64,000 nt of DNA from a candidate division WOR-3 bacterium. Lineage in GTDB: Bacteria > Hydrothermota > UBA3072. Below are positions 29,309 through 60,678 of this stretch, piece after piece (positions within the stretch are counted from its first letter, which is position 1; every line of letters begins with the position of its first letter). The DNA is taken from the NCBI GenBank assembly GCA_039804165.1, contig JBDRZZ010000009.1:4010-68009 (forward strand), read 5' to 3'. The position numbers and the translations under genes are program-made. Below the pieces are notes generated by a model, which did no database searches, was not told the origin of the DNA, and saw only the letters and a program-made list of their open reading frames with translations.

Positions 29309-32300
29309 TTAAAAATCAACCCTCACACCAAAAACGAAATAGCGAGGATTGTGGAAGGCAAGATGTGGTAGATTTGGGTCATTAATATAAGGTTTCTCAT
29401 CACTGCTAAAGTCTCCTGGTCGATCATTCCCTTTTTCTCCAAAGACCTCATAACCTTCTTCTCCATAAAGAGGCAATTTCAAGGATTTAAAATAATCATC
29501 TCTATCTTTCATATTAACAAAACAACCTGACCCTGCATCCAGATACTTCCAATTAAATAAATTATCAACCTCTCCAAATAGAGAGAGATTTACACCGGCA
29601 AAACTCAAATCTTTCGTAAGTCTTGCTTGAACATTCTGATAAGGCTTCCATTGCAAATTTAAAATCTTGCACTTTGGATCCCATGCTTCGTGGAGTGGAT
29701 CAAAAGTTTCCCAAGCTCCCGCTTCCCAGGTATAGCTAAAGCTTAAAGAAATTCCTCCTAAAATTACTCCCAAATTCTTAGGTGTAAGGAATTGAATATT
29801 CGCATTCAGGATTGGCTGAGGACGAGTTATAACCTCTAATGTGTCCCAAGCTCCAAGTTGTGCATTATCAACTGGCTCATAGTAATGAGCCTTTCTACCA
29901 ACTCTACCATAACTTCTAACCCTATAATCATAGTTCAACCAACCTCTAACCCAATCTCCAAATTCTCTACTAATCCTAAAGTCTATCCCACGAATGTCCT
30001 CAAAATTCAGATTTTCAGGAACCCTATAAGCAGGATTTGTCCTACCTTCTCCAAGATACCAAACTCCTTCAAGTTGATTCCTAATGTCTTTATAATAACC
30101 TGCAAGGTGAATCATAAATAAATTCCCAATACCCCAGTCTGTTCCAAGCTCATAAGCCCTTGTTAATGGCCATTCAAGCTCAGGATCTCCAACATACAAA
30201 ACACTCAATCTATCAGGCCCCCAAGAGATCTGGTACATATCTTGAGAAGATGGTAGAGAATAAAAATCTCCATAACTAAAATACAACTTAACATTTTCTG
30301 CTATTGGATGGGAAACACTCACACGAGGTGATAAGTAAAAATGCCCTTTTGCAGGATGCATCTCTGCAGAAACTGTTTTATCCATCAAACCCTTCTTATA
30401 ATCACTCGTGAATAAAGGCTCATAATTACGCAAGTTACTAAACCACTCGCAATTTGGATCATTCCAATCGGCCCTAACACCCACTGTTGCGATAAAACCT
30501 TCAAATTCAATCTTATCTTGAATGTATGCGCCTCCTCTAATCGGGCTAGCATCCCACTTCGTTACCCAGTTCTCATGATCAGCTTCCCATCTGTTTTTCT
30601 CGTAATAAGTGTGCATATCGTCATATTCATACTCAAAACCAACCTTTATTTCATTATTTGAATTAATCTGGGTCGTGAGATCAGCCTTAAAGGTCCAGGT
30701 CACAGAATGCGAAGAATCAACAGCTCCAGCACAAGATGCACCCATATCAATTCCATCCGGTTGAACAAGGGTGGAACCTATGAAATACCCATATGGAATC
30801 TCTGTGACTTTTATTCCGCTTGGTAAAGTATACTTTGTAACAGTATCTCTTGGCTCAAATGACTCATATGCGCTACACTCTCTTCTATTACCCAACCGAG
30901 TAATCCTCAAAGAATAAAAAGTCTTTTCACTTAACACATGGTCAAAAGAAATCCCTTGCATATCATAATAAACATTGTAAGGAGGTATAAAAGCAGGATA
31001 ATAAGCCGCCATATTGGTTACTAAAAGACTTCTAAAAGCATCATCTGCACTTGTTAGATAAATTCCCCCAACTCCACTAGGTCTATTTCCAGCAGGACCT
31101 TCCTTATAACCTCTACCTTGAACGAATTCAATAACTTGATCTCCAAGAGTTCCTCTACTTAAATCCAAATAAGGTGGAGTTCCTTCTCCACCAAACTCTC
31201 CATTTGAATTATGAGATAAAGAGTTCCTTTCTCCATACATTAAATCAAGGGATACTTTCATTGATTTTGTAAGACGAGAAACCAACTTAAGACAACCATT
31301 ATGCTCTGTAAAATACTCCCTGCTTGAAGGAAGAGGAAAAGCCTCTTTATTTAGCCTATAGGCTCCATAAAAACTCAAATCCCCCAAAAATTTACCAACT
31401 ACAGGAACAGGACCTCCAAACCCAGCATCCACACTCCAGTCTGGTTTATCTCCGTATTTCCCTACCCTTGGAGGACCATCATAATCAGGAGGAACTAATT
31501 CTTCCGCACCCTGGAGTCTATGAGACCAAATAAAAGACTCCCTCAACTTCCTTGCACTATCAGGATTATTCTTAGCTAAAACAAGCCATCCATTTGTAAA
31601 TTCTTTATACTTTTCCATTAAAGCTTTATAATATTCAGATGCAACAGTGTCACCTGCTTTCAAAGCGTTGTTGGACTTCTTTAAAAGACCTCTCTTCCCT
31701 AACCAACAAAGACTGTCTACATAATCTACCACAGTATCTTTCCCTTTTACCATTATTCTCATTGCAGGTGCCTCTGTTAAAACATAAGCTCCAACCCAAT
31801 AATTTGTTGTATCAAATAGTGAAGGGCCAAGATGCTTCATATGGGGAGGGCTATACCTAAATGTAGCTGTCCCTTCATAACTAACAGAAGGTTCTCTTGT
31901 TACAATATTTATTAAACCAGCGCGAAGATTCCCATACTCTGGAGCAAAACCACCTTTTACCACACTCACTTCCTTTACCATACTTAAAGGTGGTCTTAAA
32001 GCAGGAGAATTCGTCCTACCATCTACTAAATTCAAACCATCTCTTGTAAAACTAACCTGATCCAAAGTTCCGCCTCGCACTAATAAATCTCGAACCCCAG
32101 CCTGCTTATTAATATAATCTCCAATATCATTAACAAAAGGAACCGCTTCTATATTTTCCCTTTTTGCAGAAATAGCTGAAGAGGCGAGGTCTAATTTTAT
32201 AAGGTCTATTTTCGCCTTTACCGTAACTCCTTCTCCAGGAACCACAGTTCGCTTTAGTTCAAATTTAAGACGAGTAGTAAGATCTGAAACAACCTCTACA

Positions 32301-32602
32301 CCTCTAAGAGTCATACTCTCATAACCTATTAACCTCGCTTGAACATTGTAAATATCGGGGGGAACATTCAAAATAAAGAAAAACCCATTCTCATCTGTAG
32401 CTGCTCCCATAGCGGTTCCTTCAATAATCACATTTGCACCAATTAGAGGTTCACCAGTTTGCGCATCTACAACAGTTCCAGCAATTTTTCCTGTAATACC
32501 CGCCTCAACATTCGGGCTATAGAAGAAGAAAGAAAAAACAAGAAGTGCTACAATTATAATCCTCCTGGGTGACAAAAAATTCTCCTTTCCCATCCTTTTC
32601 AT
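29309..32602 (-). CDS. TonB-dependent outer-membrane receptor with carboxypeptidase-regulatory-like N-terminal domain
   Basis: 1097 residues: signal peptide about 15-35, CarboxypepD_reg-like domain 38-115 (GKIAGTVVDAQTGEPLIGANV), plug domain about 125-235 (NIEAVPFVNDIGDYI, LLVRGGTLDQVSFTRDGLNLVDG, GFAPEYGNLRAGLINIVT), then a 22-strand-type barrel ending YFVFGVRVDF. The length and N-terminal domain match the SusC/large-receptor class. The ligand is unknown. It heads an operon with a secreted protein and a PorV-like protein, has its own strong promoter and a leader of about 190 bases, and lies downstream of nikR and a TonB-domain protein. AAGGAGG precedes ATG 32602. Confidence 0.88.
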   Translation of the reverse strand: MKRMGKENFLSPRRIIIVALLVFSFFFYSPNVEAGITGKIAGTVVDAQTGEPLIGANVIIEGTAMGAATDENGFFFILNVPPDIYNVQARLIGYESMTLRGVEVVSDLTTRLKFELKRTVVPGEGVTVKAKIDLIKLDLASSAISAKRENIEAVPFVNDIGDYINKQAGVRDLLVRGGTLDQVSFTRDGLNLVDGRTNSPALRPPLSMVKEVSVVKGGFAPEYGNLRAGLINIVTREPSVSYEGTATFRYSPPHMKHLGPSLFDTTNYWVGAYVLTEAPAMRIMVKGKDTVVDYVDSLCWLGKRGLLKKSNNALKAGDTVASEYYKALMEKYKEFTNGWLVLAKNNPDSARKLRESFIWSHRLQGAEELVPPDYDGPPRVGKYGDKPDWSVDAGFGGPVPVVGKFLGDLSFYGAYRLNKEAFPLPSSREYFTEHNGCLKLVSRLTKSMKVSLDLMYGERNSLSHNSNGEFGGEGTPPYLDLSRGTLGDQVIEFVQGRGYKEGPAGNRPSGVGGIYLTSADDAFRSLLVTNMAAYYPAFIPPYNVYYDMQGISFDHVLSEKTFYSLRITRLGNRRECSAYESFEPRDTVTKYTLPSGIKVTEIPYGYFIGSTLVQPDGIDMGASCAGAVDSSHSVTWTFKADLTTQINSNNEIKVGFEYEYDDMHTYYEKNRWEADHENWVTKWDASPIRGGAYIQDKIEFEGFIATVGVRADWNDPNCEWFSNLRNYEPLFTSDYKKGLMDKTVSAEMHPAKGHFYLSPRVSVSHPIAENVKLYFSYGDFYSLPSSQDMYQISWGPDRLSVLYVGDPELEWPLTRAYELGTDWGIGNLFMIHLAGYYKDIRNQLEGVWYLGEGRTNPAYRVPENLNFEDIRGIDFRISREFGDWVRGWLNYDYRVRSYGRVGRKAHYYEPVDNAQLGAWDTLEVITRPQPILNANIQFLTPKNLGVILGGISLSFSYTWEAGAWETFDPLHEAWDPKCKILNLQWKPYQNVQARLTKDLSFAGVNLSLFGEVDNLFNWKYLDAGSGCFVNMKDRDDYFKSLKLPLYGEEGYEVFGEKGNDRPGDFSSDEKPYINDPNLPHLAFHNPRYFVFGVRVDF

Positions 32603-32752: not shown

Positions 32753-32787
32753 TCCTTATCCTTATTAAATACTAATCCTTATCCTTA
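32753..32787 (-). repeat. Perfect 12-bp direct repeat in the TonB-receptor leader (possible operator)
   Basis: TAAGGATAAGGA (minus-strand sense) occurs at 32776-32787 and again at 32753-32764, 23 bp apart, just downstream of the receptor promoter. The first copy is also flanked by a short inverted repeat ACTAA/TTAGT. An AAGGAGG at 32751-32757 overlaps the second copy. It could bind a regulator such as NikR or form an RNA element. Confidence 0.5.
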
Positions 32788-32799
32788 GTTTTGTGGTAA

Positions 32800-32827
32800 A
32801 TTATAACAAAAAAAATTATCTTGTCAA
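32800..32827 (-). promoter_or_regulatory. Consensus promoter of the TonB-receptor operon
   Basis: Minus strand: -35 TTGACA (32822-32827), 16-bp spacer, -10 TATAAT (32800-32805), both perfect consensus. It lies immediately after the nikR stop. The predicted leader of about 190 bases to ATG 32602 has no intact ATG-started gene. Confidence 0.75.
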
Positions 32828-32838
32828 GGGGAAAAATT

Positions 32839-33252
32839 TTAAAATTTCTTTCCTATACTTGCTTTTATAATGTCGCACTGTTTTACTCCTGTAGTAGATC
32901 TTAACTTATTATAAAACTTATAAATTTCCTTTACTTTTCCCCTAACACTAATTATTTCCATACAATTATCATAATCCATATGAATATGCTGGGTAGAAAC
33001 AATAACCTTATGGAAATCGTGCTGTATATCTGTTATTTTCTCTGGAAGGCCACCTTTATGATGATTATAAACGACCAAAATACCACCACAAACTTCTCCT
33101 TCCTCTTCCCACTCTTTTTTCACTAATCTTTCCCTAATTAAATCTCTAATAGCTTCTGAGCGATTTTTATAACCCTCTTTTTTTATCAAATTATCAAACC
33201 TTTTAAGGAGATCCTCTCCCATAGAAATTCCAAATCTTATAACCTTCTCCAT
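32839..33252 (-). CDS. nikR: NikR-type nickel-responsive ribbon-helix-helix regulator
   Basis: 137 residues. An N-terminal ribbon-helix-helix (RFGISMGEDLLKRFDNLI, then YKNRSEAIRDLIRERL) is joined to an ACT-like metal-binding domain. The four nickel ligands are conserved with exact E. coli spacing: H78, H89, H91, C97. NikR represses nickel-uptake genes when nickel is abundant. It is 12 bases downstream of the SBP-TonB fusion gene, in the same transcript, and upstream of the TonB-receptor operon, so both are candidate targets. It has no clear Shine-Dalgarno, suggesting coupling to the preceding gene. Confidence 0.92.
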   Translation of the reverse strand: MEKVIRFGISMGEDLLKRFDNLIKKEGYKNRSEAIRDLIRERLVKKEWEEEGEVCGGILVVYNHHKGGLPEKITDIQHDFHKVIVSTQHIHMDYDNCMEIISVRGKVKEIYKFYNKLRSTTGVKQCDIIKASIGKKF

Positions 33253-33264
33253 AAGGAAGCTATT

Positions 33265-35310
33265 TTACTCTACAAATCGCACAGGGAAAGAATACCAAAT
33301 TGCTACAGGTCTATTACCCTGCATTGCTGGAGAAAACTTTAAATTCTTAGCGTTCTCTATCGCAACTTTATCCAAAATGGGATGGGCAGATTTTGCAAGA
33401 ACCACTTTCGTAACATTCCCCTCCTCGGTTATCCACAAATTTAAGTAGACAGTGCCAGTAATTCCTAACCTTCTCGCAGCCTCAGGATACGGAAAGGAAA
33501 CCTTATCAAGATTAAGAGGCTTTGGAGGAACTTCGTAAGGGATGAACTTTGGAGCTTCTTCTTCTTCCTCTAAAGCAGTATCAGCTGGTTTTTCGGGCTC
33601 CACTTTAGTAGGAGTTGTTAAAGTGGGTCTCCTCTCAGGAACTTGAGTGGGTGCAGAAGCTTGAAGAACTTCTTCTGCTACCGGGTTAGCTCTTGGTGGC
33701 CTCACAAGTTCTGGCCTAGATACCTCTTCTTCTTTCTTATAACTTTCCCCTAAAGAAGCAAGATCTACACTCACTTCAGGAATCCTCTCAAACCATAATT
33801 CATCAACATAAGATAAAATTGGTCTTCTGTCCTCCTCTGTTATACCTTGGATTCCTTTTTTAAGAAGGGTTATTTTACGGGGAGTATATAGAAAAGTATA
33901 TGGAAGATCATCCCTAATTATTCTTTGGAACTCATATAAAGCTTCCTTTGCTTTTTCTCTATCAAGAGACAAAAGAGCTTCCCCAATTAGGCTATCTACT
34001 TTCCTGTTTTTATACCCAACAAAATTATAAACTCCATCAGAGCTCCAAATTGGGAATGGATTAAATTCCTTCTCAACATTCCATCCAAGGATATAAGCAT
34101 CAAAATCTCCTTCAAATAATCTCTTAATCAACTCTACTCCAGAAACAGGCACAACATTTGCTTGAACCCCAATACCTCTAAGATTAGAAGCCACTATCTC
34201 TCCAACTCTTTTTCTGATCTCATTTTCTTGCTCAACCAAAATATTTACACTAAGTCCTTTATAATATGCCTCCTTTTTAGATTTCGAATAACCAAGACCT
34301 TCTATTATTTTTCTTGCAGTTTCCTTATCCTCATTCAATGTCCTTAACTCTGGATTATAAGCCCAATGTTCTGGAGTGATAGGTCCATCCACAACTTGAC
34401 CATAGTTCTTTAAAACCTCAGAAATTATCCTTTTCCTATCTATAGCCATACTAAGAGCTTTCCTCAGTTCCTTATTTGGGAAACGTTTGAGATTCCATCC
34501 TATATATGTATACGATCTCCCTGGAGAAAGAACTTTCACATAAGAAGTAAGAGTATCATAATCTCCTGGAGGTAAATCATATGCAAGATCAACACTCCCT
34601 CTACCAAGCTCACTCATAAGTTCCTCTATAGAAGATGGGGTATAAAAAACTATCCTATTTAAAGGAGGAATCCCTTTAAAATATCCCTCATTTGCGACAA
34701 GCTCAATCCATTTCCCCTTATTCCATTCTTTCAGTTTAAAAGGTCCTGAACCAATTGGGTTTAAATTAAAATCAGCATTAATCAGATTTTCTTCCTTTTC
34801 CAAAATATGTTTTGGGATAGGGCGAATATTCGTAACCTGAAGTTCCCCTGCAAAAACTCTATTCAAATTGAAACGAACCTCTCTTGGAGAAAGCGCCTCA
34901 ACACTCTCTACATAATTCAGTTTTTGAGCAAGTGGGGATTTATTTTCTTTTTTTAATATTTGATTAACTGTAAAAACTACATCTTCCGCTGTTATTGGTT
35001 TTCCATCATGCCAAGTTGCCCCTTTCGCAATGGTATAGGTAATGGACTTTAAATCTTCAGAATAAACCCAAGATTCGGCAAGAGCGGGTCTAACTTTACC
35101 ATCTGGTCTTTCGGAAATTAAAGGAGCAAATATTTGTTCAGTTACAGGTGAAAGCCCTGAAATAGAAGGATAGATTGGATTTAAACTTGATGGCTCTTCA
35201 AATAATGCTATTATTAGCATACCTCCTCTTTTATCAGAATAATGAAACTCTTCCATCCTCTGGCAACTTAATAAAATAATAAATAAAAGAGTTACAATAA
35301 ACTTTTTCAT
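33265..35310 (-). CDS. SBP_5-family (peptide/nickel) binding lipoprotein fused to a TonB C-terminal domain
   Basis: 681 residues. A lipoprotein signal (LLSCQ, cysteine 16) precedes a complete family-5 extracellular solute-binding domain (about 20-513): EEPSSLNPIY, LAESWVYSEDLKSITYTI, ATWHDGKPITAEDVVFT, YTYIGWNLKRFPNKELRKALS and AYILGWNVEK. A linker of about 83 residues rich in Pro and Glu follows (514-596). The last 85 residues (597-681) are a TonB C-terminal domain: SFPYPEAARRLGITGTVYLN, TEEGNVTKVVLAKSAHPILD, NLKFSPAMQGNRPV and a final strand. I do not know this fusion as a standard architecture. With nikR downstream, nickel or a chelate is a plausible ligand, but peptides are equally typical of the family. 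Confidence 0.85.
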   Translation of the reverse strand: MKKFIVTLLFIILLSCQRMEEFHYSDKRGGMLIIALFEEPSSLNPIYPSISGLSPVTEQIFAPLISERPDGKVRPALAESWVYSEDLKSITYTIAKGATWHDGKPITAEDVVFTVNQILKKENKSPLAQKLNYVESVEALSPREVRFNLNRVFAGELQVTNIRPIPKHILEKEENLINADFNLNPIGSGPFKLKEWNKGKWIELVANEGYFKGIPPLNRIVFYTPSSIEELMSELGRGSVDLAYDLPPGDYDTLTSYVKVLSPGRSYTYIGWNLKRFPNKELRKALSMAIDRKRIISEVLKNYGQVVDGPITPEHWAYNPELRTLNEDKETARKIIEGLGYSKSKKEAYYKGLSVNILVEQENEIRKRVGEIVASNLRGIGVQANVVPVSGVELIKRLFEGDFDAYILGWNVEKEFNPFPIWSSDGVYNFVGYKNRKVDSLIGEALLSLDREKAKEALYEFQRIIRDDLPYTFLYTPRKITLLKKGIQGITEEDRRPILSYVDELWFERIPEVSVDLASLGESYKKEEEVSRPELVRPPRANPVAEEVLQASAPTQVPERRPTLTTPTKVEPEKPADTALEEEEEAPKFIPYEVPPKPLNLDKVSFPYPEAARRLGITGTVYLNLWITEEGNVTKVVLAKSAHPILDKVAIENAKNLKFSPAMQGNRPVAIWYSFPVRFVE

Positions 35311-35330
35311 TCTCTCCTCCTTTTAATATA

Positions 35331-35358
35331 ATCTTAAGGAAAATATTTAATTAGTCAA
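35331..35358 (-). promoter_or_regulatory. Promoter of the SBP-TonB/nikR operon
   Basis: Minus strand: -35 TTGACT (35353-35358), 16-bp spacer, -10 TAAGAT (35331-35336), AGGAGGAG before ATG 35310. The -35 lies 29 bases from the shared sequence of the decayed insertion element, the same distance as for the promoter at 62783-62811. Confidence 0.6.
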
Positions 35359-35381
35359 GGGGATAGAATAGCATAATAGTT

Positions 35382-36395
35382 AACCCCAAAGCAGATGATT
35401 TACGCTTCAGAGAGGTCTCTCACAAAAAGAGATGAGATTTACAAAATTACGAGGTTATAAAAATATGCAACCCTTTGATAACTCAAAAAACGATTTGATA
35501 TGGTAAGATATGCTAAAAAGAATCCATAGCCAAGGCAACTCGGATATTCAAAACAGAAAGATCCACTTTTTGCAAATAGCTTAAGAGACATGGCACACAG
35601 AAGATTTATAATCGTCCGAGAGCTTCAAAGAAAGTTTACAAAACTTCGGGATGTATAGAGGTTTTAATAGTGAAGAAACGCATTAGGTAAAATATCCACC
35701 AAAACATTAACGAGAGATTTTGGTATTCCAGTATATCATAAAACCGGAGGGAGAATTCTTCTCCAGAGAAAAGAGAATTTAGACGAAAATATACCAGAAA
35801 AGAAATAGCTTTTATAAAACAGAAATGGAACTCTTTTACTCAGATAGATATAAGATACCAATCATCTAGACAAGATTTTCATTTTATTTTTCTTTTATGA
35901 AAGCCCTGGGATTACCGAAATAAAGCATAGTACAAGATGTATAATCAAATGGGTTATATTTTACTCCTTACTCACAAAATATAAGTTTAGTTCATTCCTG
36001 TATATTTGGAAGGCTTTTATGTGAGTTCTTAAGCAGAGATAGGATAGGAGAATGATCTCGGAATGAGATGTAGAAACTCTTCATGCTATAATAGAAATAG
36101 AATTCTTTGATATAGAAGTTTTTAATTCGAAAGGACATTTTTCATAAAATCAATAATTATCTGTTCTTTTCAATACAATAGAAAGAGCCTAAAACAAGAA
36201 AGTAAAAACTCCATCGGATATACTGATTGAAAAATCTTGAAATTCTCCACTAGTTTTATTTTAGATCTTGATAACCTCTTGGAAAAGAAGATGGGGTTAT
36301 CTTTAGATAGAAAGAGGACGTTGTGAATTACATCTTAAAATGTAAAACACTTGTCTTGGAATGTGTAAAATTAAACTTGGGGAAAGCATAAAATG
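35382..36395 (+). mobile_element. Decayed insertion element, copy A (IS481-like transposase remnant)
   Basis: The gap 35311-36496 contains no intact gene. It is colinear with 62832-63530: both share AAAGCAGATG, CACAAAAAGA, ACGAGGTTATAAAAA, TTTGATNT, ATGCAAC, TTTTACTCA and TTTTATGTGAGTT in the same order. Plus-strand frames, broken by stops and frameshifts, give DFGIPVYHKT...RIL near 35720, QIDIRY near 35845 and EGFYVS near 36010. These resemble the HTH, first-Asp and EFY regions of IS481-like DDE transposases. Terminal repeats were not found. The duplication is well supported; the family is tentative. Confidence 0.6.
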
Positions 36396-36496
36396 AGTGA
36401 TAAGAGAGTGCATAATAAAATTTAAAAGAATTTGGTAAAATAATCCCTTCATTAGAATTTATGTATACTCTGAGAGAAAACCATTCCCTGTTTCCT

Positions 36497-37722: not shown

Positions 37723-37725
37723 TCT

Positions 37726-37838
37726 ATCTCTTCGGGGTTGGGTGAAATTCCCGACCGGCGGTAAAAGCCCGCGAGGAGAAAATCCCGATTCGGTGAAATT
37801 CCGAAGCCGACGGTTAAAGTCCGGATGGGAGAAGAGAT
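37726..37838 (+). ncRNA. FMN riboswitch (RFN element)
   Basis: The conserved RFN segments are all present: GGGTGAAATTCCCGACCGGC, GGTAAAAGCCCGCGA, ATTCGGTGAAATTCCGAAGC and CGACGGTTAAAGTCCGGATG. The closing P1 stem pairs 37726-37733 with 37831-37838. It senses FMN and controls ribD-ribE-ribBA-ribH. A terminator hairpin follows 6 bases later, so FMN binding should favour termination. Confidence 0.97.
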
Positions 37839-37843
37839 TGGTT

Positions 37844-37869: not shown

Positions 37870-38916
37870 ATGAATAAATTGGATGAGTATTTTTTAAGAA
37901 AAACTTTTGAAATTGCAAAAAAGGGGGAAGGATTGGTCTCACCAAACCCTCTTGTAGGAGCTTGCGTTGTAAAAGAAGGAATTCTTGTTGGAGAAGGTTA
38001 TCATCGTGGTCCAGGAACCCCTCATGCAGAAGTAGAAGCAATAAAAAAAGCAGGGGATAAAGCAAAAGGCGCAACTCTTTATGTTTCTCTTGAACCTTGC
38101 TCTCATTACGGAAATACCCCTCCTTGTGTTGAATTAATTGAAAAAAGCGGAATAAAAAGAGTTGTGGCTCCCATAAAAGATCCAAACCCTATTGTAAATG
38201 GAAAAGGCTTTAAGTTCTTGAAGAGAAAGGGGATCCAAATCACAACGGGACTTCTTGAAGAAGAAGCGAAAAAATTAAACCCTTTTTATTTGAAATATAT
38301 AAAAACAGGAATACCCTATGTTATTCTTAAAGCTGCTCTTTCTCTTGATGGAAAGATTGGGAATCCTGAAAAAGGAATTTTCAAAATAACCTCTAAAGAT
38401 TCTCTGAAAGAGGTGCATTACTATAGAAAAAAAGTAGATGCATTATTAATTGGTGTTAACACTGTCCTAATAGACAATCCCGAACTAACAGTTAGGTTTA
38501 CAAAAGCAAAAAAACAACCCTTAAAAATAATAATAGATCCATATCTAAAATGCCCCAAAAATGCAAAAATTTTTAAAATTGGAGGAAAAGTAATAATTGT
38601 CACAACAATTAAAGAAGCAAAACAAAAATATCCTGAAGCTAAAGTATGGGTCTTTAAAGAAAAAAGGGGAGTAATAGATATAAGAGAAATTCTTAAGAAA
38701 GCTGGAGAAGAAAAAATAACTTCTATTATGGTGGAAGGAGGAAGCGAAACCTTCACTCACTTCATTAATTCTGGAGTGGTGGACAAATACCTTCTTTTCT
38801 ACTCTCCTTCTCTTATAGGGGAAGGAATCCCTTTCGTCAAAAGCGTAAAAAAGAGAATCTTCTTGGATTTAAATACAAAAAAAATTGGAAGAGATATTCT
38901 TTTGGAGTCAGAATAA
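37870..38916 (+). CDS. ribD: Bifunctional diaminohydroxyphosphoribosylaminopyrimidine deaminase / reductase RibD
   Basis: 348 residues. The N-terminal deaminase has zinc motifs HAEVEAI and EPCSHYGNTPPC (about 55-88). The C-terminal reductase (about 150-348) has KAALSLDGKIG, VDALLIGVNTVLIDNPELTVR and VEGGSETFTHFI. It carries out the second and third steps of riboflavin synthesis from GTP. It is first in the FMN-riboswitch-controlled operon, starting only 3 bases after the terminator T-run. The next gene overlaps its stop by one base. Confidence 0.96.
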   Translation: MNKLDEYFLRKTFEIAKKGEGLVSPNPLVGACVVKEGILVGEGYHRGPGTPHAEVEAIKKAGDKAKGATLYVSLEPCSHYGNTPPCVELIEKSGIKRVVAPIKDPNPIVNGKGFKFLKRKGIQITTGLLEEEAKKLNPFYLKYIKTGIPYVILKAALSLDGKIGNPEKGIFKITSKDSLKEVHYYRKKVDALLIGVNTVLIDNPELTVRFTKAKKQPLKIIIDPYLKCPKNAKIFKIGGKVIIVTTIKEAKQKYPEAKVWVFKEKRGVIDIREILKKAGEEKITSIMVEGGSETFTHFINSGVVDKYLLFYSPSLIGEGIPFVKSVKKRIFLDLNTKKIGRDILLESE

Positions 38917-53215: not shown

Positions 53216-54460
53216 ATGGAAAAATTAAAGGGAAAAGCCCTTTTTCTTCTCAAAAATAACATAAATAAAGGTTACAGCAAGAATCTAAATAGAGAGTACT
53301 TTTACATCTCTCCAGACAAAATCCACTTCCACCAATGGTTTTGGGACTCCTGTTTTCATACAATAGTCACTTCAAAGTTAGAACCAGAATTGGCAAAGAA
53401 AGAATTTGAAACCTTACTCTCTGTTCAAAAAGAAGATGGTTTCTTGCCTCATATTATTTTCTGGAAATTAAGATTTAAAGACCATTTAAAAAGATGGTGG
53501 CTAGAAGAAGTAAACAGGAAAGAAACCATCTTCTTTTCTGCCGAAATTCAACCTCCTGTGATTGGAATTTCTCTTCTTGAGATCTATAAAAATACAAAAG
53601 ACATTTCTTTTGTTAAAAGAAATATAGAGAAAGTCGAAAAATATTACTCCTATCTAAGGGATAAAAGAGATCCTGATAAAGATGCTCTTGTCTCAATAAT
53701 AACTCCTATGGAATCAGGGATGGACCTTTCCCCTCAGTATGATGTTGTCTTCGGAAATTATATTCATAATCCTATAATAACAAGAAAAAAAATTAAAGAA
53801 TTACTAAAAAACTACAAAAAATGGAATTGGGATCTTGAAAAAATCTTCAAAATTTCACTTTTTGATGTTGAGGATGTCTCTTTCAACACAATTTATTGCC
53901 TTGGTTTATTCGCTCTTTGCGAATTGTATAGTCTTTTCAATAAAAGTAAAGAAAAAGAACTAAAAGAATGGAGCTCTCTCGTAAAGAAATCCATTATAGA
54001 AAAATTTTGGGATAAAAAAGAAAAGCTCTATTTTAGCTTATTTCATAAAGAAGGGAAAGAATTCCCAATGAAAGTTAAAACCATTTCTTCTCTCTTTCCT
54101 CTAACACTCCCAATTCCCAAAAATCACATCAATCATTTAATACAACATTTAAAAAGCGAAAAAGAATTCTGGAGTAAATACCCAATCCCCTCCGTTGCAA
54201 GAGACGAACCATCTTTTGGCCCTTTAACTGATACTCGGTTCCTATGGAGAGGGACAACATGGATTAACACAAACTGGTTTATTATAAAAGGACTACAGAA
54301 ACACGGATATAAAAAGCTATCCCTAGAGATCTCAAAAAAAACAATTGAACTTATAAAAAAATTTGATTTTTGCGAATTTTACGACCCTTTAGATGGACAT
54401 CCTGGAAAAGCAATGAAGAATTTTAGCTGGTCTACTCTTGTAATAGAACTATTAAATTAA
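53216..54460 (+). CDS. GH63-like (MGH1/trehalase-type) glycoside hydrolase
   Basis: 414 residues from ATG 53216; the frame extends 24 codons upstream but that part is not protein-like and overlaps the divergent gene. It has an (alpha/alpha)6-barrel pattern: HFHQWFWDSCFHTIV, QKEDGFLPHIIFW, SIITPMESGMDLSPQYD, a PSVARDEPSFGP segment and LWRGTTWINTNWFIIKGLQKHG near the C-terminus. These fit mannosylglycerate-hydrolase/glucosidase-like GH63 or trehalase-like enzymes. The substrate is unclear; the compatible solute mannosylglycerate is one candidate for a thermophile. It has no signal peptide. Confidence 0.8.
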   Translation: MEKLKGKALFLLKNNINKGYSKNLNREYFYISPDKIHFHQWFWDSCFHTIVTSKLEPELAKKEFETLLSVQKEDGFLPHIIFWKLRFKDHLKRWWLEEVNRKETIFFSAEIQPPVIGISLLEIYKNTKDISFVKRNIEKVEKYYSYLRDKRDPDKDALVSIITPMESGMDLSPQYDVVFGNYIHNPIITRKKIKELLKNYKKWNWDLEKIFKISLFDVEDVSFNTIYCLGLFALCELYSLFNKSKEKELKEWSSLVKKSIIEKFWDKKEKLYFSLFHKEGKEFPMKVKTISSLFPLTLPIPKNHINHLIQHLKSEKEFWSKYPIPSVARDEPSFGPLTDTRFLWRGTTWINTNWFIIKGLQKHGYKKLSLEISKKTIELIKKFDFCEFYDPLDGHPGKAMKNFSWSTLVIELLN

Positions 54461-55539
54461 AACTCTCCAGGGAAAAAACACTTTACAAAATGCCCTTTTT
54501 TCACCTCAAAGAAAGGAGGCTCCTCATCTCCTTCACAAATCTTTCTTGCAATAGGGCATCTCGGATTAAAATAGCATCCAGAGGGTTTCTCAAGAAGAGA
54601 AGGGACCTCTCCCTTTAAATCAATCTTCTCTTTCTTCTTTTTAGGATTAGGTTCGGGAACTGCTGAAAGTAAAACTTTCGAGTAAGGGTGAAGGGGATTT
54701 TTATAAATCTCTTCTGAAGAACCAACTTCCATCAATTTACCAAGATACATTATTCCTATCTCATGAGCTATATGCTTAACTAAAGATAGATCATGAGAGA
54801 TAAAAATATATGTTATCCGAAACTCTTTCTGCAAATCTTGCATTAAATTTATTACCTGTGCCCGAATAGAAACATCAAGAGAAGAAACAGGCTCATCAGC
54901 AATAATTAACTCAGGATTTGTAGAAAGAGCTCTTGCAATTCCTATCCTTTGTCTTTGCCCTCCTGAAAATTCATGAGGATATCTATAAAGACAATCTTCG
55001 CTTAATCCCACTTTTCTTATTAATTTCTTTACAATCTCTTTGTTCTCTTTTCTTTTCCCAAACATCACAATAAGAGGTTCTTCTATTATTTCTTCCACAG
55101 TAAACCTTGGATTGAGAGAAGAAAATGGGTCTTGAAAAATCATTTGAATTTTTTGGCGATAATATCTTAATTCTTTTCTGTTTAACTTCGGAAGATCAAT
55201 TTTTACTCTTTGTTTTCTCCCATCTTCTAACTCCTCCTCATCATAGTAAAAAATATCTCCTTCTTTTGGATGCACGAGTCTAACTATTGTTTTTCCAATT
55301 GTAGACTTTCCGCAACCTGTTTCTCCGACAAGACCAAAAACTTTCCCTCTTTTCAATGTAAAACTAACTCCATCTACAGCTTTAACAAAACCCACAACCC
55401 TTCTAAAAACTCCTCCAAAAATAGGAAAATATGTTTTCAAATCTCTTACCTCAAGCAAAATCTCTTTTTTATTATCATTAATCCTAATCAATTTTCCTTT
55501 TCTTTCCATATTATTTAACCACTTTTTCTTAAAGTCCAT
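54457..55539 (-). CDS. Oligopeptide ABC transporter ATPase (OppF/DppF-like)
   Basis: 360 residues from ATG 55539, which overlaps the OppD-like stop (ATGA); the TTG one codon earlier is less likely. Walker A GETGCGKSTIGKTIV, Q-loop IQMIFQDPFSSLNPRFTV, signature FSGGQRQRIGIARAL and Walker B LIIADEPVSSLD are all intact. The C-terminus has the oligopeptide-type Cys cluster (CYFNPRCPIARKICEG...CFFPGEF), which can bind Fe-S. It pairs with the OppD-like ATPase for peptide uptake energised at the inner membrane. It is the last gene of the five-gene transporter set. Confidence 0.93.
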   Translation of the reverse strand: MDFKKKWLNNMERKGKLIRINDNKKEILLEVRDLKTYFPIFGGVFRRVVGFVKAVDGVSFTLKRGKVFGLVGETGCGKSTIGKTIVRLVHPKEGDIFYYDEEELEDGRKQRVKIDLPKLNRKELRYYRQKIQMIFQDPFSSLNPRFTVEEIIEEPLIVMFGKRKENKEIVKKLIRKVGLSEDCLYRYPHEFSGGQRQRIGIARALSTNPELIIADEPVSSLDVSIRAQVINLMQDLQKEFRITYIFISHDLSLVKHIAHEIGIMYLGKLMEVGSSEEIYKNPLHPYSKVLLSAVPEPNPKKKKEKIDLKGEVPSLLEKPSGCYFNPRCPIARKICEGDEEPPFFEVKKGHFVKCFFPGEF

Positions 55540-56522
55540 CAATCAATTCTCCTTCTTTCATACAAATGGCAACGAACAGAGTGCTCTTTCTCCACTTTAA
55601 TTAATTCTGGAACAACTCTCTCACAAATAGGCATCTTGTATTTACAGCGAGGATGAAAAGGACAACCAGGGGGTATCTCTATAATATTTGGAACATTTCC
55701 AGGTATTACTTTTAATCTATTTTTCCTTTCTTCCAATCTTGGAAGAGATTCCAATAAACCCTTTGTATAAGGATGCAAAGGGTTTTCAAAAAGAGTAATT
55801 GTCCTTGCTATTTCTTGAATCTTCCCGCAATAAATAACTGCTACCCTAACGCAGGTCTCTGCAACAACGCCCAAATCATGGGTTATTAGGAGAATTGCAG
55901 ATTCTTTCTTCTTATTTTTTATCTCGGAAATAAGCCTAAGAATTTGAGCTTGAACTGTTACATCAAGGGCTGTGGTAGGTTCATCAGCTATCAAGAACTC
56001 AGGCTCACAACTAAGAGCAATCGCTATCATAACTCTCTGTCTCATCCCTCCAGAAAGTCTATGAGGATATTCATTTATTCTAAGTTCCGGAGAAGGAATT
56101 CCAACCTTCCTTAGTAAAGAAATAGCAACCTCCTTAGCTTCTTTCTTATTCATATTCTTATGGACAATCAAAGGCTCCATTATCTGATAACCTACTGTAA
56201 AAAGAGGATTTAGAGAGGTCATAGGCTCCTGAAAAATCATAGAAATCTTGTTCCCTCGGATTTTTCTCATCTCTTCCCAACTAAGTTCTAACAAATTCCT
56301 CTCCTTAAAAATTATCCTCCCACAAATTTTTCCTGGAGGATCCGGAATTAACCTCAAGATAGATAACGCTGTGACAGATTTACCAGAACCAGATTCTCCA
56401 ACCAATCCTAAAAACTCCCCTTCATAAATACTAATATCTAAGCCGTCCACAGCTTTAGCTTTCGCACCGTTTATTTCAAAATGAACATTTAGATTTTCAA
56501 TTCTTAATAACTCTTTACTCAT
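55539..56522 (-). CDS. Oligopeptide ABC transporter ATPase (OppD/DppD-like)
   Basis: 327 residues. Walker A GESGSGKSVTALSIL, Q-loop ISMIFQEPMTSLNPLFTV, signature LSGGMRQRVMIAIAL and Walker B FLIADEPTTALD are intact. A C-terminal Cys-containing oligo_HPY-like tail (GCPFHPRCKYKMPICERV) matches peptide transporters. It is 6 bases downstream of the permease gene and overlaps its partner ATPase. Confidence 0.93.
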   Translation of the reverse strand: MSKELLRIENLNVHFEINGAKAKAVDGLDISIYEGEFLGLVGESGSGKSVTALSILRLIPDPPGKICGRIIFKERNLLELSWEEMRKIRGNKISMIFQEPMTSLNPLFTVGYQIMEPLIVHKNMNKKEAKEVAISLLRKVGIPSPELRINEYPHRLSGGMRQRVMIAIALSCEPEFLIADEPTTALDVTVQAQILRLISEIKNKKKESAILLITHDLGVVAETCVRVAVIYCGKIQEIARTITLFENPLHPYTKGLLESLPRLEERKNRLKVIPGNVPNIIEIPPGCPFHPRCKYKMPICERVVPELIKVEKEHSVRCHLYERRRID

Positions 56523-56528
56523 AGCTTT

Positions 56529-57698
56529 TTATCTCATTCTTGTATAAACTCTTGGATCAAGAGCTTCCCTAATAGCCTCGCCGATAAACGCAATAAGCAA
56601 GAGAGTCAAAAACATCGCAACCATTGGAGAAAGAGTAAGCCACCAGGAATTTAAATTCGCCACACCTTGAGATAAAAGTTGTCCCCAACTTGGAGTTGGC
56701 TCTGGCAAACCAAATCCTAAAAAATCCAGAGAAGCAAGCACAGAAATTCCAGAAATTATACTAAAAGGCAAAAAAGAAATTACTGGCGTTAAAGAATTTG
56801 GTAAAATGTGAGAAAAAATTATTTTCCAATCACTCACTCCAATTGCTATAGCAGCCTGAACATAATCCTTCGCCTTTTCCCTTAGGAATTCAGCCCTTAT
56901 ATATCTTGCTGTTGAGATCCAAGCGAAAAGAGAAATAACTATAATCAAAATTGCAAAATTTGGTATCATTATTGAAGAAATAACCATTACAGTGAATAGA
57001 AAGGGAATTGATGCCCATATTTCAATAAAACGCAATCCAAGAAAATCGACTTTTCCTCCAAAGTAGCCCAAGAGAGCTCCAAAAAGAATCCCAATTCCAT
57101 ATTCTGCTAAGGTTAGAAGTAGAGAAAAACTCATATAAATTCTAAAACCATAGACAAGCCTTGCAAGAACATCCCTACCCCTATCATCTGTCCCAAGAAA
57201 ATGTTTTCTATCTGGGGGGGTTGGTGGATTTCTATTGCCAAGTTCTCCCAAAAGGCTCTCATTAGGGCCATAAGGATAAGGAGCAAGAACAACAAAATCT
57301 CCTCTTTTTTCTTCTTCAAATATTCTTTTAAGTTCTCGATGATTGTCAAAGCTTCTTTTTATCTTCTCATATCTTTTATATTTTTCTCTTGAATAAATAA
57401 ACTCTTTTCTGTTTTCCGGAGAAAGAGTATCTTCTTTATTCATCCAAAGTAGATATTCTTCTTTCGCCTCAATCTCTTTTTTAAAAATATCCTTTTTAAA
57501 AGAAACATCACTATAAGGGGTAAAATATATTTTATTATCAAACTTAATAAGAATTGCATTCTCGTTTATCAAAAATTCGGAGAAGAAAGATAAAAAGTAA
57601 AGAATTCCTATAATCAAAAGAGAATAATAACCTCTCTTAAAACTCTTAAATTTTTTTATTTTCTTCACTAAGATGGGTGAAATAAAAGCCTTTTGCAT
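56529..57698 (-). CDS. Peptide ABC transporter permease (YejE/OppC-like)
   Basis: 389 residues from ATG 57698, where AGGAGAG lies just upstream; a longer frame to 57743 would overlap the other permease. The long cytoplasmic/periplasmic N-terminus with FKRGYYSLLIIGILYFLSFFS and the insertion region about 65-150 resemble YejE of the Yej (microcin C/peptide) transporter. The core has GTDDRGRDVLARLVYGFRIYM and the EAA-like loop (about 260-300), with FLREKAKDYVQAAIAIG. It belongs to a five-gene SBP-permease-permease-ATPase-ATPase set. Confidence 0.9.
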   Translation of the reverse strand: MQKAFISPILVKKIKKFKSFKRGYYSLLIIGILYFLSFFSEFLINENAILIKFDNKIYFTPYSDVSFKKDIFKKEIEAKEEYLLWMNKEDTLSPENRKEFIYSREKYKRYEKIKRSFDNHRELKRIFEEEKRGDFVVLAPYPYGPNESLLGELGNRNPPTPPDRKHFLGTDDRGRDVLARLVYGFRIYMSFSLLLTLAEYGIGILFGALLGYFGGKVDFLGLRFIEIWASIPFLFTVMVISSIMIPNFAILIIVISLFAWISTARYIRAEFLREKAKDYVQAAIAIGVSDWKIIFSHILPNSLTPVISFLPFSIISGISVLASLDFLGFGLPEPTPSWGQLLSQGVANLNSWWLTLSPMVAMFLTLLLIAFIGEAIREALDPRVYTRMR

Positions 57699-57709
57699 CT
57701 CTCCTAAAT

Positions 57710-58738
57710 TTAGTCCAGCCTTATCCTTGGATCTATTATACAATAAAGAAAGTCAGAAAAGATATTCCCAATCATATAAAGAACTGAAGAAAAGACCAAA
57801 ATTCCAAGCATCACAGGGTAATCTCTATCTAAGATTGAATTATACCCTAACATCCCAAAACCATGAATATTAAAAACTTTCTCTATTAAGAAAGAACCTG
57901 ATAAAATTATAGAGAATACTCCTCCAAGACCTGTTGCAATTGGAATTAAAGAATTTCTTAAAACATGTTTCAAAATAACAGTTCTTTCAGATAAACCCTT
58001 TGCAAAAGCTGTTCGCACATAATCTTGAGCAAGATTTTCTATTAAAGAATTTTTCATCAAAATTGTAAGAGTTGCAAAAGACCCAAGAGTATAACAAAAA
58101 ACAGGTAAAATCATATGGTGAATGTTATCCCAAATTTTCCCTATTAAAGTTAAATTTTCATAATCTAAAGAATGTATTCCACCTAAAGGGAATATGTTTA
58201 AAAAAGAACCTCCCCCAAATAGAACAAGAAGCACAATCCCTGCGACCCATCCTGGAATTGCATATCCTATAAAAACTATTGCGGAACTTATAAAATCAAA
58301 GAAAGACTTATGCTTAATTGCTTTTAATATCCCAAGCGGAATGCAAACAAGATATGAAAGCAAAAAACCTGTAATCCCAAACCTTAAAGAAATTGGGAAT
58401 CTTTCTCTAATTACATCCCAAACAGGTCTTGAATAGGTATAAGATTCTCCCAGGTCAAAACGAACCACTTTCCAAAGCCATAATAAATATGAAATATAAA
58501 AAGGTTTATCAAATCCATAAATTCTTTTCAGTTTTTCTACCATCTCCTCAGATATAGCTGTCCCTCCACTACCAATAGTGCTACCCCCCTCACTTTGAAA
58601 TTGCATTTGCCTATATTTCAAAATCGCCATTTCAACAGGTCCTCCAGGAGCAAATCTTGTAATTGTAAAGACAATAAAAGTAACTCCTATAAAAGTTGGT
58701 ATCACCATTAAAAGACGCCTAATAAAATAGTTTATCAT
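57710..58738 (-). CDS. Peptide ABC transporter permease (YejB/OppB-like)
   Basis: 342 residues, six helices. It starts YFIRRLLMVIPTFIGVTFIVFTITRFAPGGP, has a YejB-like segment around residues 45-80 (MQFQSEGG...MVEKLKRIYGFDKP), and a C-terminal EAA loop (LAQDYVRTAFAKGLSERTVILKHVLRNSL). The start overlaps the SBP stop by 4 bases. It forms the channel with the YejE-like partner. Confidence 0.93.
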   Translation of the reverse strand: MINYFIRRLLMVIPTFIGVTFIVFTITRFAPGGPVEMAILKYRQMQFQSEGGSTIGSGGTAISEEMVEKLKRIYGFDKPFYISYLLWLWKVVRFDLGESYTYSRPVWDVIRERFPISLRFGITGFLLSYLVCIPLGILKAIKHKSFFDFISSAIVFIGYAIPGWVAGIVLLVLFGGGSFLNIFPLGGIHSLDYENLTLIGKIWDNIHHMILPVFCYTLGSFATLTILMKNSLIENLAQDYVRTAFAKGLSERTVILKHVLRNSLIPIATGLGGVFSIILSGSFLIEKVFNIHGFGMLGYNSILDRDYPVMLGILVFSSVLYMIGNIFSDFLYCIIDPRIRLD

Positions 58739-60678
58739 TTCTTATATTCCTCCTTAAACTCCTCCCAACTTTTAAGTTTTACCTTACTTCGAAGCATAAT
58801 TTCTTTATCTTTTGCTCTCTCTAATTCTTGAGAAAGTTCCTCATCTATCCACCAAAATGCAATTATTGGCCAATATGGTTTATAATTTATAAGTCCATTA
58901 TAATCAGTTTGAGAAACTCCAAACTCAGGCATTCCAAATTTATTCCAGTATAATAACTTCATATTATCCTCATACCAAAGAAGGGCTGTCATATATTTAT
59001 TTACTAAAATAGAATCAAGCTCTTTTAACAAATTTATCCTTTTTTCTAAATTATATTCCTTATAATATAAATCAAGTAATTTATCAACATTTTTATCTTT
59101 AATCCCCCAAATATTAAATGAGCCTTTTTTATCGGCAAATTTTGAGTGATAGCAAAGCTCAGGGTTCGGGAAAATTTCAATTGTAAATCGCAAACCTATC
59201 ATTTTAAAATTAAATTCCTCAAGATCCTTCATATTCTTAGCCCAAGTCACTCTCTTCAGGTTCAGCTTGATTCCAACTTTTTTGAGTTCTTCTTGAAGAA
59301 GTGTTTCCACCCTTGTATCATCTACCCTATAGACATTAAGCGTAATCTCAAAAACCTTACCATCTTTCATTATATAACCATCTTTATTTAAATTTTTTTG
59401 AGAAAAGCCAACTTCTTCTAAAAGTCTTATTGCTTCTTCCTTGTTGTATTCAATTTCTGGATTTTTTTCATTTTCATAAGGGAGCCCAGCAAAATAAGAA
59501 TTCATAATTTTAAATTCGTTATAATAAAATTTCTCAAGAATTAAACTCCTATTTATAAGAAGAATTATCGCCTTTCTTACCCTCTCATCATTAAAAGGTT
59601 CTTCTCTCAAGTTAAAATAAAAACCATTCACATAAGGCATATTAATATAAAATCTTTGTTTTATAATGTGATTGTTTCTTATTTCTTTATTTTTTGAAGG
59701 AATATATTCTTCTGCCCAATCCTTAAGAAGCGGTCTTTCTATTTGCAAAATGTCTATCTCTCCTTTTTTAAATTTTTCCCCTATTATTGTCTCCTCAGGA
59801 TAAAAAATAAAGCGAATATAATCAAAATTAAAAAGGTTTTTGTTCATCTTATAAAAATAACCCCACCAAGAAGGATTTCTCTTTAAAATTATGCATTCAT
59901 TTGGAATTGCCCTTTCAAAAAGATAGGGTCCTGAACCTAATATCATCTCATTATTATATTTCTTCATATAAAGAGAAGGAGTCATTCTCCCTATTATATG
60001 TTCTGGGAGAATAAAGAATTCTTCTGTGCTTATATTAAAAAAAGCTCTCCAGGAAGGTTCTTTTGACTCAATCATTAGAACATCCTTAGAAAGAGCAACA
60101 GGTCTTTTAAATTTCAAAAACATTTCCTGCCACATAGGTTCCTTCAAATCATCACTTGTAACAAGATCCCAGGTGGCAACTGCATCAAAAGCTGTTACAG
60201 GCTTACCATCAGCCCACTTTGCTTTTGGATTTATATGATAAAAATAAATTTTTTTATCTTCGCTTATAAACCACTTATCTGCAAGAGAAGGTATATATTC
60301 AAAAGTAATAAGATCTACTTTAAGAAGGGTCTCATATAAAAGAGATCGGAGAATTGCATTTAGAAGATAAGAAGCACTCTGTCCATATATTCTTAAAGTT
60401 GCAGGATAACCAAAACACCCAAAAGTAATATAACCACCCTTTCTCGCCCTATCATCCCATAAAATAGAAGGATTATCATTTGTAACCCATTTAATTGAAT
60501 TAATGAGGCTATCAATTTCTCTTTTTGTTAAATCTTTTGGGCCATATTTTTTAAATAGTTCTTCTTCTGAGACCAAAAGCTCTTTTTCTTCTAATTTTTC
60601 TTCTTTTTTACAGGAAACAGAAAACAGTAAAACCAAAGAGAACAAAATTTTTATTATTGAAAAATCTCTAAACCTCAT
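58735..60678 (-). CDS. Extracellular solute-binding lipoprotein family 5 (peptide transporter)
   Basis: 647 residues with a lipoprotein signal (LLFSVSCKKEEK, Cys about 22). The SBP_5 core is present: LADKWFISEDKKIYFYHINPKAKWADGKPVTAFDAV, GSGPYLFERAIPNECIILKRNPSW, NGFYFNLREEPFNDERVRKAIILLINR. It is longer than many and fits the YejA-like subgroup. It delivers peptides to the YejB/E-type permeases that follow. A hypothetical membrane protein 27 bases upstream probably shares the transcript. Confidence 0.92.
   Translation of the reverse strand: MRFRDFSIIKILFSLVLLFSVSCKKEEKLEEKELLVSEEELFKKYGPKDLTKREIDSLINSIKWVTNDNPSILWDDRARKGGYITFGCFGYPATLRIYGQSASYLLNAILRSLLYETLLKVDLITFEYIPSLADKWFISEDKKIYFYHINPKAKWADGKPVTAFDAVATWDLVTSDDLKEPMWQEMFLKFKRPVALSKDVLMIESKEPSWRAFFNISTEEFFILPEHIIGRMTPSLYMKKYNNEMILGSGPYLFERAIPNECIILKRNPSWWGYFYKMNKNLFNFDYIRFIFYPEETIIGEKFKKGEIDILQIERPLLKDWAEEYIPSKNKEIRNNHIIKQRFYINMPYVNGFYFNLREEPFNDERVRKAIILLINRSLILEKFYYNEFKIMNSYFAGLPYENEKNPEIEYNKEEAIRLLEEVGFSQKNLNKDGYIMKDGKVFEITLNVYRVDDTRVETLLQEELKKVGIKLNLKRVTWAKNMKDLEEFNFKMIGLRFTIEIFPNPELCYHSKFADKKGSFNIWGIKDKNVDKLLDLYYKEYNLEKRINLLKELDSILVNKYMTALLWYEDNMKLLYWNKFGMPEFGVSQTDYNGLINYKPYWPIIAFWWIDEELSQELERAKDKEIMLRSKVKLKSWEEFKEEYKK

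Follow-up and report, generated by a model that had tools for sequence, protein, structure and literature searches.

How a ligand released by a TonB-dependent receptor reaches a periplasmic binding protein (SBP) is not settled. In E. coli, TonB has been reported to contact two such proteins, FhuD and BtuF (as cited in PMC3813593), and these contacts involve separate proteins. This binding is the precedent closest in logic to the protein described here, in which an SBP_5 domain is hard-wired to a TonB tip. Such a protein, present in a dozen families and mostly importer-less, would be a natural test case. No paper on an SBP_5–TonB_C fusion was found in a literature search restricted to open-access articles, which is weak evidence of absence.

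The fusion is encoded in the window, the whole 64,000-nucleotide stretch of DNA analyzed here, from a candidate division WOR-3 bacterium. Its gene starts with ATG and forms a single unbroken ORF with the following parts.

33265–35310, minus strand: coding sequence of the SBP_5–linker–TonB_C fusion lipoprotein, 681 aa (ORF and Pfam; kept in 52 of 147 genomes of the phylum)
35263–35310, minus strand: lipoprotein signal peptide and lipobox (LLSC, Cys16), from the sequence, with the Cys kept in homologues with intact N-termini
33772–35232, minus strand: SBP_bac_5 domain, residues ~27–513, nearest to AppA, CtaP and NikZ (Pfam, homology and fold)
33523–33771, minus strand: Pro/Glu-rich disordered linker, residues 514–596 (pLDDT; its kind is conserved across the alignment)
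33655–33678, minus strand: short conserved helix within the linker, residues 545–552 (AlphaFold2 and alignment)
33268–33522, minus strand: TonB C-terminal domain, residues 597–681, Pfam core 607–679 (Pfam and fold)

The N-terminus, MKKFIVTLLFIILLSC, was recognized by eye as a lipoprotein signal, and every examined homologue with an intact N-terminus has a Cys at the lipobox position. This signal, ending at Cys16, is the only hydrophobic N-terminal stretch of the protein. An N-terminal inner-membrane helix for ExbB/ExbD is absent, unlike in the canonical TonBs that these genomes encode, which possess one. The SBP_bac_5 model (PF00496) matches residues 72–413 with 262 bits (cut-off 32.4, E 1e-77), and the homology to AppA extends to residue ~506–513, so the SBP of the fusion is complete. 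TonB_C (PF03544) matches residues 607–679 with 66 bits (cut-off 24.6, E 3e-18). The full-length AlphaFold2 model, for which 24 family members were used, reaches a mean pLDDT of 83.6 and predicts a confident SBP, a disordered linker with one short helix, and a folded C-terminal domain. The pLDDT falls below 50 at residues 532–540 and 555–591. The linker is conserved in kind, with 80–123 residues between identical columns of the homologue alignment, and the helix at 545–552 coincides with a conserved motif in which Leu549 is invariant. The initial annotation had read the gene in one frame as a complete SBP_5 domain to about residue 513, a Pro/Glu-rich linker and a TonB_C domain in residues 597–681. 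Each part of this reading is borne out by the profile matches and the model, and a frameshift separating the domains is contradicted by the single ORFs of 23 of the 24 fusion carriers among 59 other genomes of the phylum.

The best structure match of the SBP half is AppA of B. subtilis (1xoc, Foldseek E 1.8e-43), and NikZ of C. jejuni is among the best fold matches. In sequence the SBP half scores 352 bits against AppA versus at most 176 bits against NikA. The NCBIfam NikA models fall far short of their cut-offs on the fusion (112.6 bits vs 393 and 113.4 bits vs 600).

The pairing of SBP_5 with TonB_C recurs across genomes, as the initial annotation had proposed to check. Our first search found the fusion in 25 of 60 genomes of the phylum (the window's own included), in 24 of them as one ORF; the copy in G030 is split by contig ends. 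The extended search found it in 52 of 147 genomes, again counting the window's own, with 46 copies at full length and 12 of 37 families represented. A sample of 390 genomes, ~240 of them outside the phylum, yielded two further full-length fusions, G275 and G248; each combines SBP_bac_5 and TonB_C with an N-terminus resembling a lipobox. That the two domains were joined by chance or in assembly is ruled out by the 46 full-length homologues and by the fact that the assemblies of several hosts consist of a single contig, where a mis-join is excluded. One contig scan returned only distant SBPs of Planctomycetota. Of 13 stand-alone relatives outside the phylum, four adjoin OppB and OppC; thus the SBP lineage has importer-linked members. 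The absence of an operon partner conserved across families would fit a non-functional remnant, but full-length copies in 46 genomes of 12 families, and the conservation of SBP signature residues, lipobox, linker motif and TonB_C in the copies examined, leave this explanation with hardly any probability.

No ABC permease adjoins the fusion gene, as had been noted from the sequence. The question of a distant importer was addressed with the OppB of the window as the query, because OppC_N (PF12911) misses the window's own OppC and is unreliable as a permease marker. This query finds homologues down to 27% identity. An OppB-type permease was detected in nine of the 147 genomes of the phylum and in three of the 52 fusion genomes (G000, G001 and G004); it was not detected in the other 49. 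A handoff to OppBCDF as the general function is ruled out by these 49 genomes. The initial annotation had pictured a lipoprotein that engages a receptor and captures the ligand it releases, as a handoff module that may borrow a distant ABC permease. The genuine TonB-type domain and the genuine SBP in this picture stand, while delivery to an ABC importer does not hold as a general mechanism. One importer lies within the window, 19 kb from the fusion gene.

54457–60678, minus strand: Opp/Yej-like ABC importer, SBP included, with the only OppB-type permease found in this genome

This cluster, from which the fusion had been suggested to borrow its permease, is a possible but unlikely partner. It encodes a 647-aa SBP of its own, which counts against its serving the fusion.

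An inspection of the surroundings of the fusion gene gave the following features.

32839–33252, minus strand: nikR, nickel-responsive regulator with the complete H78-H89-H91-C97 nickel-site pattern, 12 bp downstream of the fusion gene (ORF and profile search)
35331–35358, minus strand: weak sigma-70-like promoter preceding the fusion gene (TTGACT-16-TAAGAT, 9 of 12; promoter scoring)
32800–32827, minus strand: promoter of the receptor gene, perfect sigma-70 consensus (12 of 12, with TG; promoter scoring)
32753–32787, plus strand: two exact 12-nt direct repeats, TCCTTATCCTTA, at 32753–32764 and 32776–32787, a candidate regulator operator just downstream of the receptor promoter
29309–32602, minus strand: TonB-dependent receptor, candidate docking partner (ORF and Pfam)

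The ORF at 32839–33252, overlooked in the initial annotation, encodes NikR. NikR adjoins the fusion in both genomes of the window's genus and is absent from this position in all other genera examined. The promoter stretch of the fusion gene, CCTTGACTAATTA, is common to the window and the sister species. The receptor contains a possible TonB box, VPGEGVTVKA, at residues 121–130 (by eye); its gene adjoins in the window but not in the sister species. The repeats are spaced 23 nt apart next to nikR in an operator-like layout. As an NikR operator shared with the sister species they were rejected: the best sites in the sister locus have two mismatches, and matches of this quality occur there at chance level.

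These features raise the alternative that the fusion is a nickel-uptake component of this genus only, passing a nickel chelate from the receptor at 29309–32602 to the Yej-like importer. In its favor, nikR immediately follows the fusion gene in the two genomes of the genus, the nickel site of the window's NikR is intact, and the receptor gene just past it has a strong promoter together with tandem repeats. The NikZ-like SBP fold and the Opp-type permease in both genomes also speak for it. However, NikR is linked to the fusion in no other genus examined, the receptor does not adjoin in the sister species, and the importer has its own SBP. The scores given above also go against it, with the NikA models at 113 bits against cut-offs of 393 and 600 and AppA ahead of NikA. 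We consider this alternative distinctly unlikely. At the level of the genus nickel is a possibility as the ligand; as a ligand across the phylum it is not backed by the neighbors of the fusion.

A comparison of 39 fusion neighborhoods revealed no common transporter partner. The neighbors are pyrR-pyrB-pyrC in f1/f2, and MscS, UDP-glucuronate and glycosyltransferase genes in f11/f36. Peptidase genes adjoin the fusion in f18/f24 (M42 and M23) and in G275 (M19). In family f11, a gene for a PorX-type (T9SS) response regulator (L105:6365-7873) is convergent with the fusion gene. Elsewhere in the window, an FMN riboswitch at 37724–37840 (Rfam RF00050, 123 bits) lies upstream of riboflavin genes starting at 37870.

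Modeled alone, the TonB_C domain (residues 593–681) has a mean pLDDT of 96 and matches solved TonB C-terminal domains with Z scores of 12.4–10.9. The matches include receptor-bound TonB in the complexes FoxA–TonB (6i97, Z 12.2), TbpA–TonB (9dc4, Z 12.2) and BtuB–TonB (2gsk, Z 10.9). Against TolA chains Z is at most 7.1, compared with 12.4 for TonB. Residues 2–82 of the MxcH model NF038079 also match the TonB_C of the fusion. A related genome encodes a 352-aa, apparently secreted protein with a terminal TonB_C (L097:447-1505); TonB tips are therefore joined to other exported proteins in the phylum too.

In the two genomes of the window's genus, G000 and G001, the TonB_C of the fusion is about 50–68% identical to the canonical TonBs of the family and 35–42% identical to the corresponding domain of sister fusions. 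Two trees place it within the canonical TonBs. In the tree of the SBP half, the six members of family f1 fall together with 100/100 support. One clade for the fusion TonB_C domains of family f1 was rejected (p-AU 0.014). For all fusion TonB_C domains, rejection of one clade was not reached (p-AU 0.127 and 0.114), so the case for a replacement rests on the family-level test, the branch supports and the identities. From these sequence comparisons, it appears well supported but not certain that a canonical TonB C-terminus has displaced the fusion's own TonB_C in the window's genus. The putative junction was placed by tail comparison, identities and trees.

33520–33558, minus strand: approximate junction from sister-fusion-like to canonical-TonB-like sequence, residues 585–597

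In the sister species G001 (L038:8003-11488), TonB, fusion and NikR genes are consecutive on one strand with TonB directly upstream of the fusion, and this canonical TonB gene is a plausible donor. In the window, the ~1.2 kb between the fusion gene and a semialdehyde dehydrogenase gene (35311–36496) contains no ORF of at least 100 aa, and a search of this gap for a remnant of a TonB gene gave no match. The TonB_C domains of the fusion and of real TonB are probably interchangeable. The apparent replacement argues that the fusion TonB_C binds what TonB binds; the domain swap, if right, suggests the same kind of partner, that is, the TonB box.

The same evidence bears on another explanation, in which TonB_C binds peptidoglycan, a TolB-like protein or another envelope partner and merely anchors the SBP in the periplasm. 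TonB C-termini bind peptidoglycan, a second protein of the phylum also ends in TonB_C (the 352-aa secreted protein above), and cell-envelope genes are often neighbors, as in f11/f36. Yet the fold matches TonB better than TolA, and the apparent exchange with canonical TonB in the window's genus is at odds with a different partner. On balance this explanation seems unlikely.

The genome of the window also encodes, on contig C2, a 1056-aa protein with MCP signaling segments and a C-terminal SBP_5 domain (L065:4854-8024). Neither a signal peptide nor a membrane helix was seen by eye, and this chemoreceptor is apparently cytoplasmic. Its cluster contains genes for CheW, a receiver-domain protein, CheA and CheC, followed by TPR, DUF4388 and Roadblock-type genes, and its SBP is nearer to AgaA/DppA than to AppA. 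Among the 147 genomes, 41 have both fusion and chemoreceptor, 11 the fusion only, five the chemoreceptor only and 90 neither, a count that takes in three chemoreceptor copies recognized by length and position only. Four of the five chemoreceptor-only genomes are at most 77% complete. The co-occurrence has a Fisher p of 1e-20, a descriptive value that ignores shared ancestry. Two-compartment sensing, in which the fusion would take the receptor ligand and the cytoplasmic SBP_5–MCP with CheA/CheW/CheY/CheC would read the same ligand class, is an improbable scheme. The co-occurrence leaves some room for the more general suggestion of the initial annotation, that the fusion may act as a ligand sensor.

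Taken together, our best explanation, held tentatively and with chances somewhat short of even, is an outer-membrane-tethered lipoprotein that docks on TonB boxes and captures or buffers the ligand as it emerges, no dedicated ABC importer being involved; its location, docking, ligand class and capture are what we infer. The lipoprotein would most likely be anchored in the outer membrane on its periplasmic side, and the flexible linker would let TonB_C bind TonB boxes that TonB-dependent receptors expose. Plug domains of such receptors were found in all 60 genomes searched, 25 fusion carriers included. Against the model, the fusion has no receptor gene as a constant neighbor. Docking would keep the SBP_5 domain at the periplasmic exit of the receptor, where released ligand may be captured or buffered. 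The ligand of this AppA/NikZ-type domain would most likely be an oligopeptide or a small-molecule or metal chelate, which might then be handed on to peptidases in the periplasm or to other carriers, or be used as a signal. The peptidase genes next to the fusion in f18/f24 and G275 speak for this model. As a TonB box has room for one TonB C-terminus at a time, the fusion would have to alternate with TonB or compete against it. The fusion is no ordinary energy transducer, because it has no transmembrane helix for ExbB/ExbD, and in most hosts it feeds no Opp/Dpp/Nik ABC importer, because none was found in the genome. If this explanation is true, SBPs would be shown to have a role of their own at the outer membrane.

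Competition for the TonB box could instead be the function itself. The SBP would sense a ligand while TonB_C occupies TonB boxes, damping or licensing receptors. The lack of a link to the membrane motor, the missing ABC importer in most hosts, a TonB_C apparently still interchangeable with that of real TonB, and the co-occurrence with the SBP_5 chemoreceptor system are consistent with such a ligand-gated competitor, as are SBPs known as signal inputs (PMC9602780). The long disordered linker, however, offers no obvious allosteric route between the two domains, and we regard this possibility as rather unlikely.

The docking and capture model can be compared with several known systems. The AppA and Opp4A-type oligopeptide-binding lipoproteins share domain, fold and lipoprotein export with the SBP of the fusion. 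AppA, however, works with an ABC importer and lacks a TonB_C domain, whereas the importer of the fusion is usually missing from the genome. The nickel-binding proteins NikZ and NikA belong to the same superfamily, and the fold is close to that of C. jejuni NikZ. Unlike NikA, the fusion scores under the equivalog cut-offs, is linked to NikR in one genus only and has no permease alongside. TonB, whose C-terminal domain is bound to FoxA, TbpA, BtuB and FhuA, has the C-terminal fold and the Pro-rich linker in common with the fusion, and in the window's genus the TonB_C of the fusion is apparently of the canonical TonB lineage. Where TonB has an N-terminal transmembrane helix for ExbB/ExbD, the fusion has a lipid anchor and a ligand-binding domain. 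MxcH (NF038079, the myxochelin receptor model) likewise carries TonB_C on a partner other than an inner-membrane helix, but at the N-terminus of a TonB-dependent receptor rather than on an SBP. In the TonB–FhuD and TonB–BtuF pairs of E. coli, a periplasmic binding protein meets a TonB C-terminus, as in the fusion. Those are separate proteins, and each binding protein has its own ABC importer, whereas the fusion combines both in one chain that is mostly importer-less.
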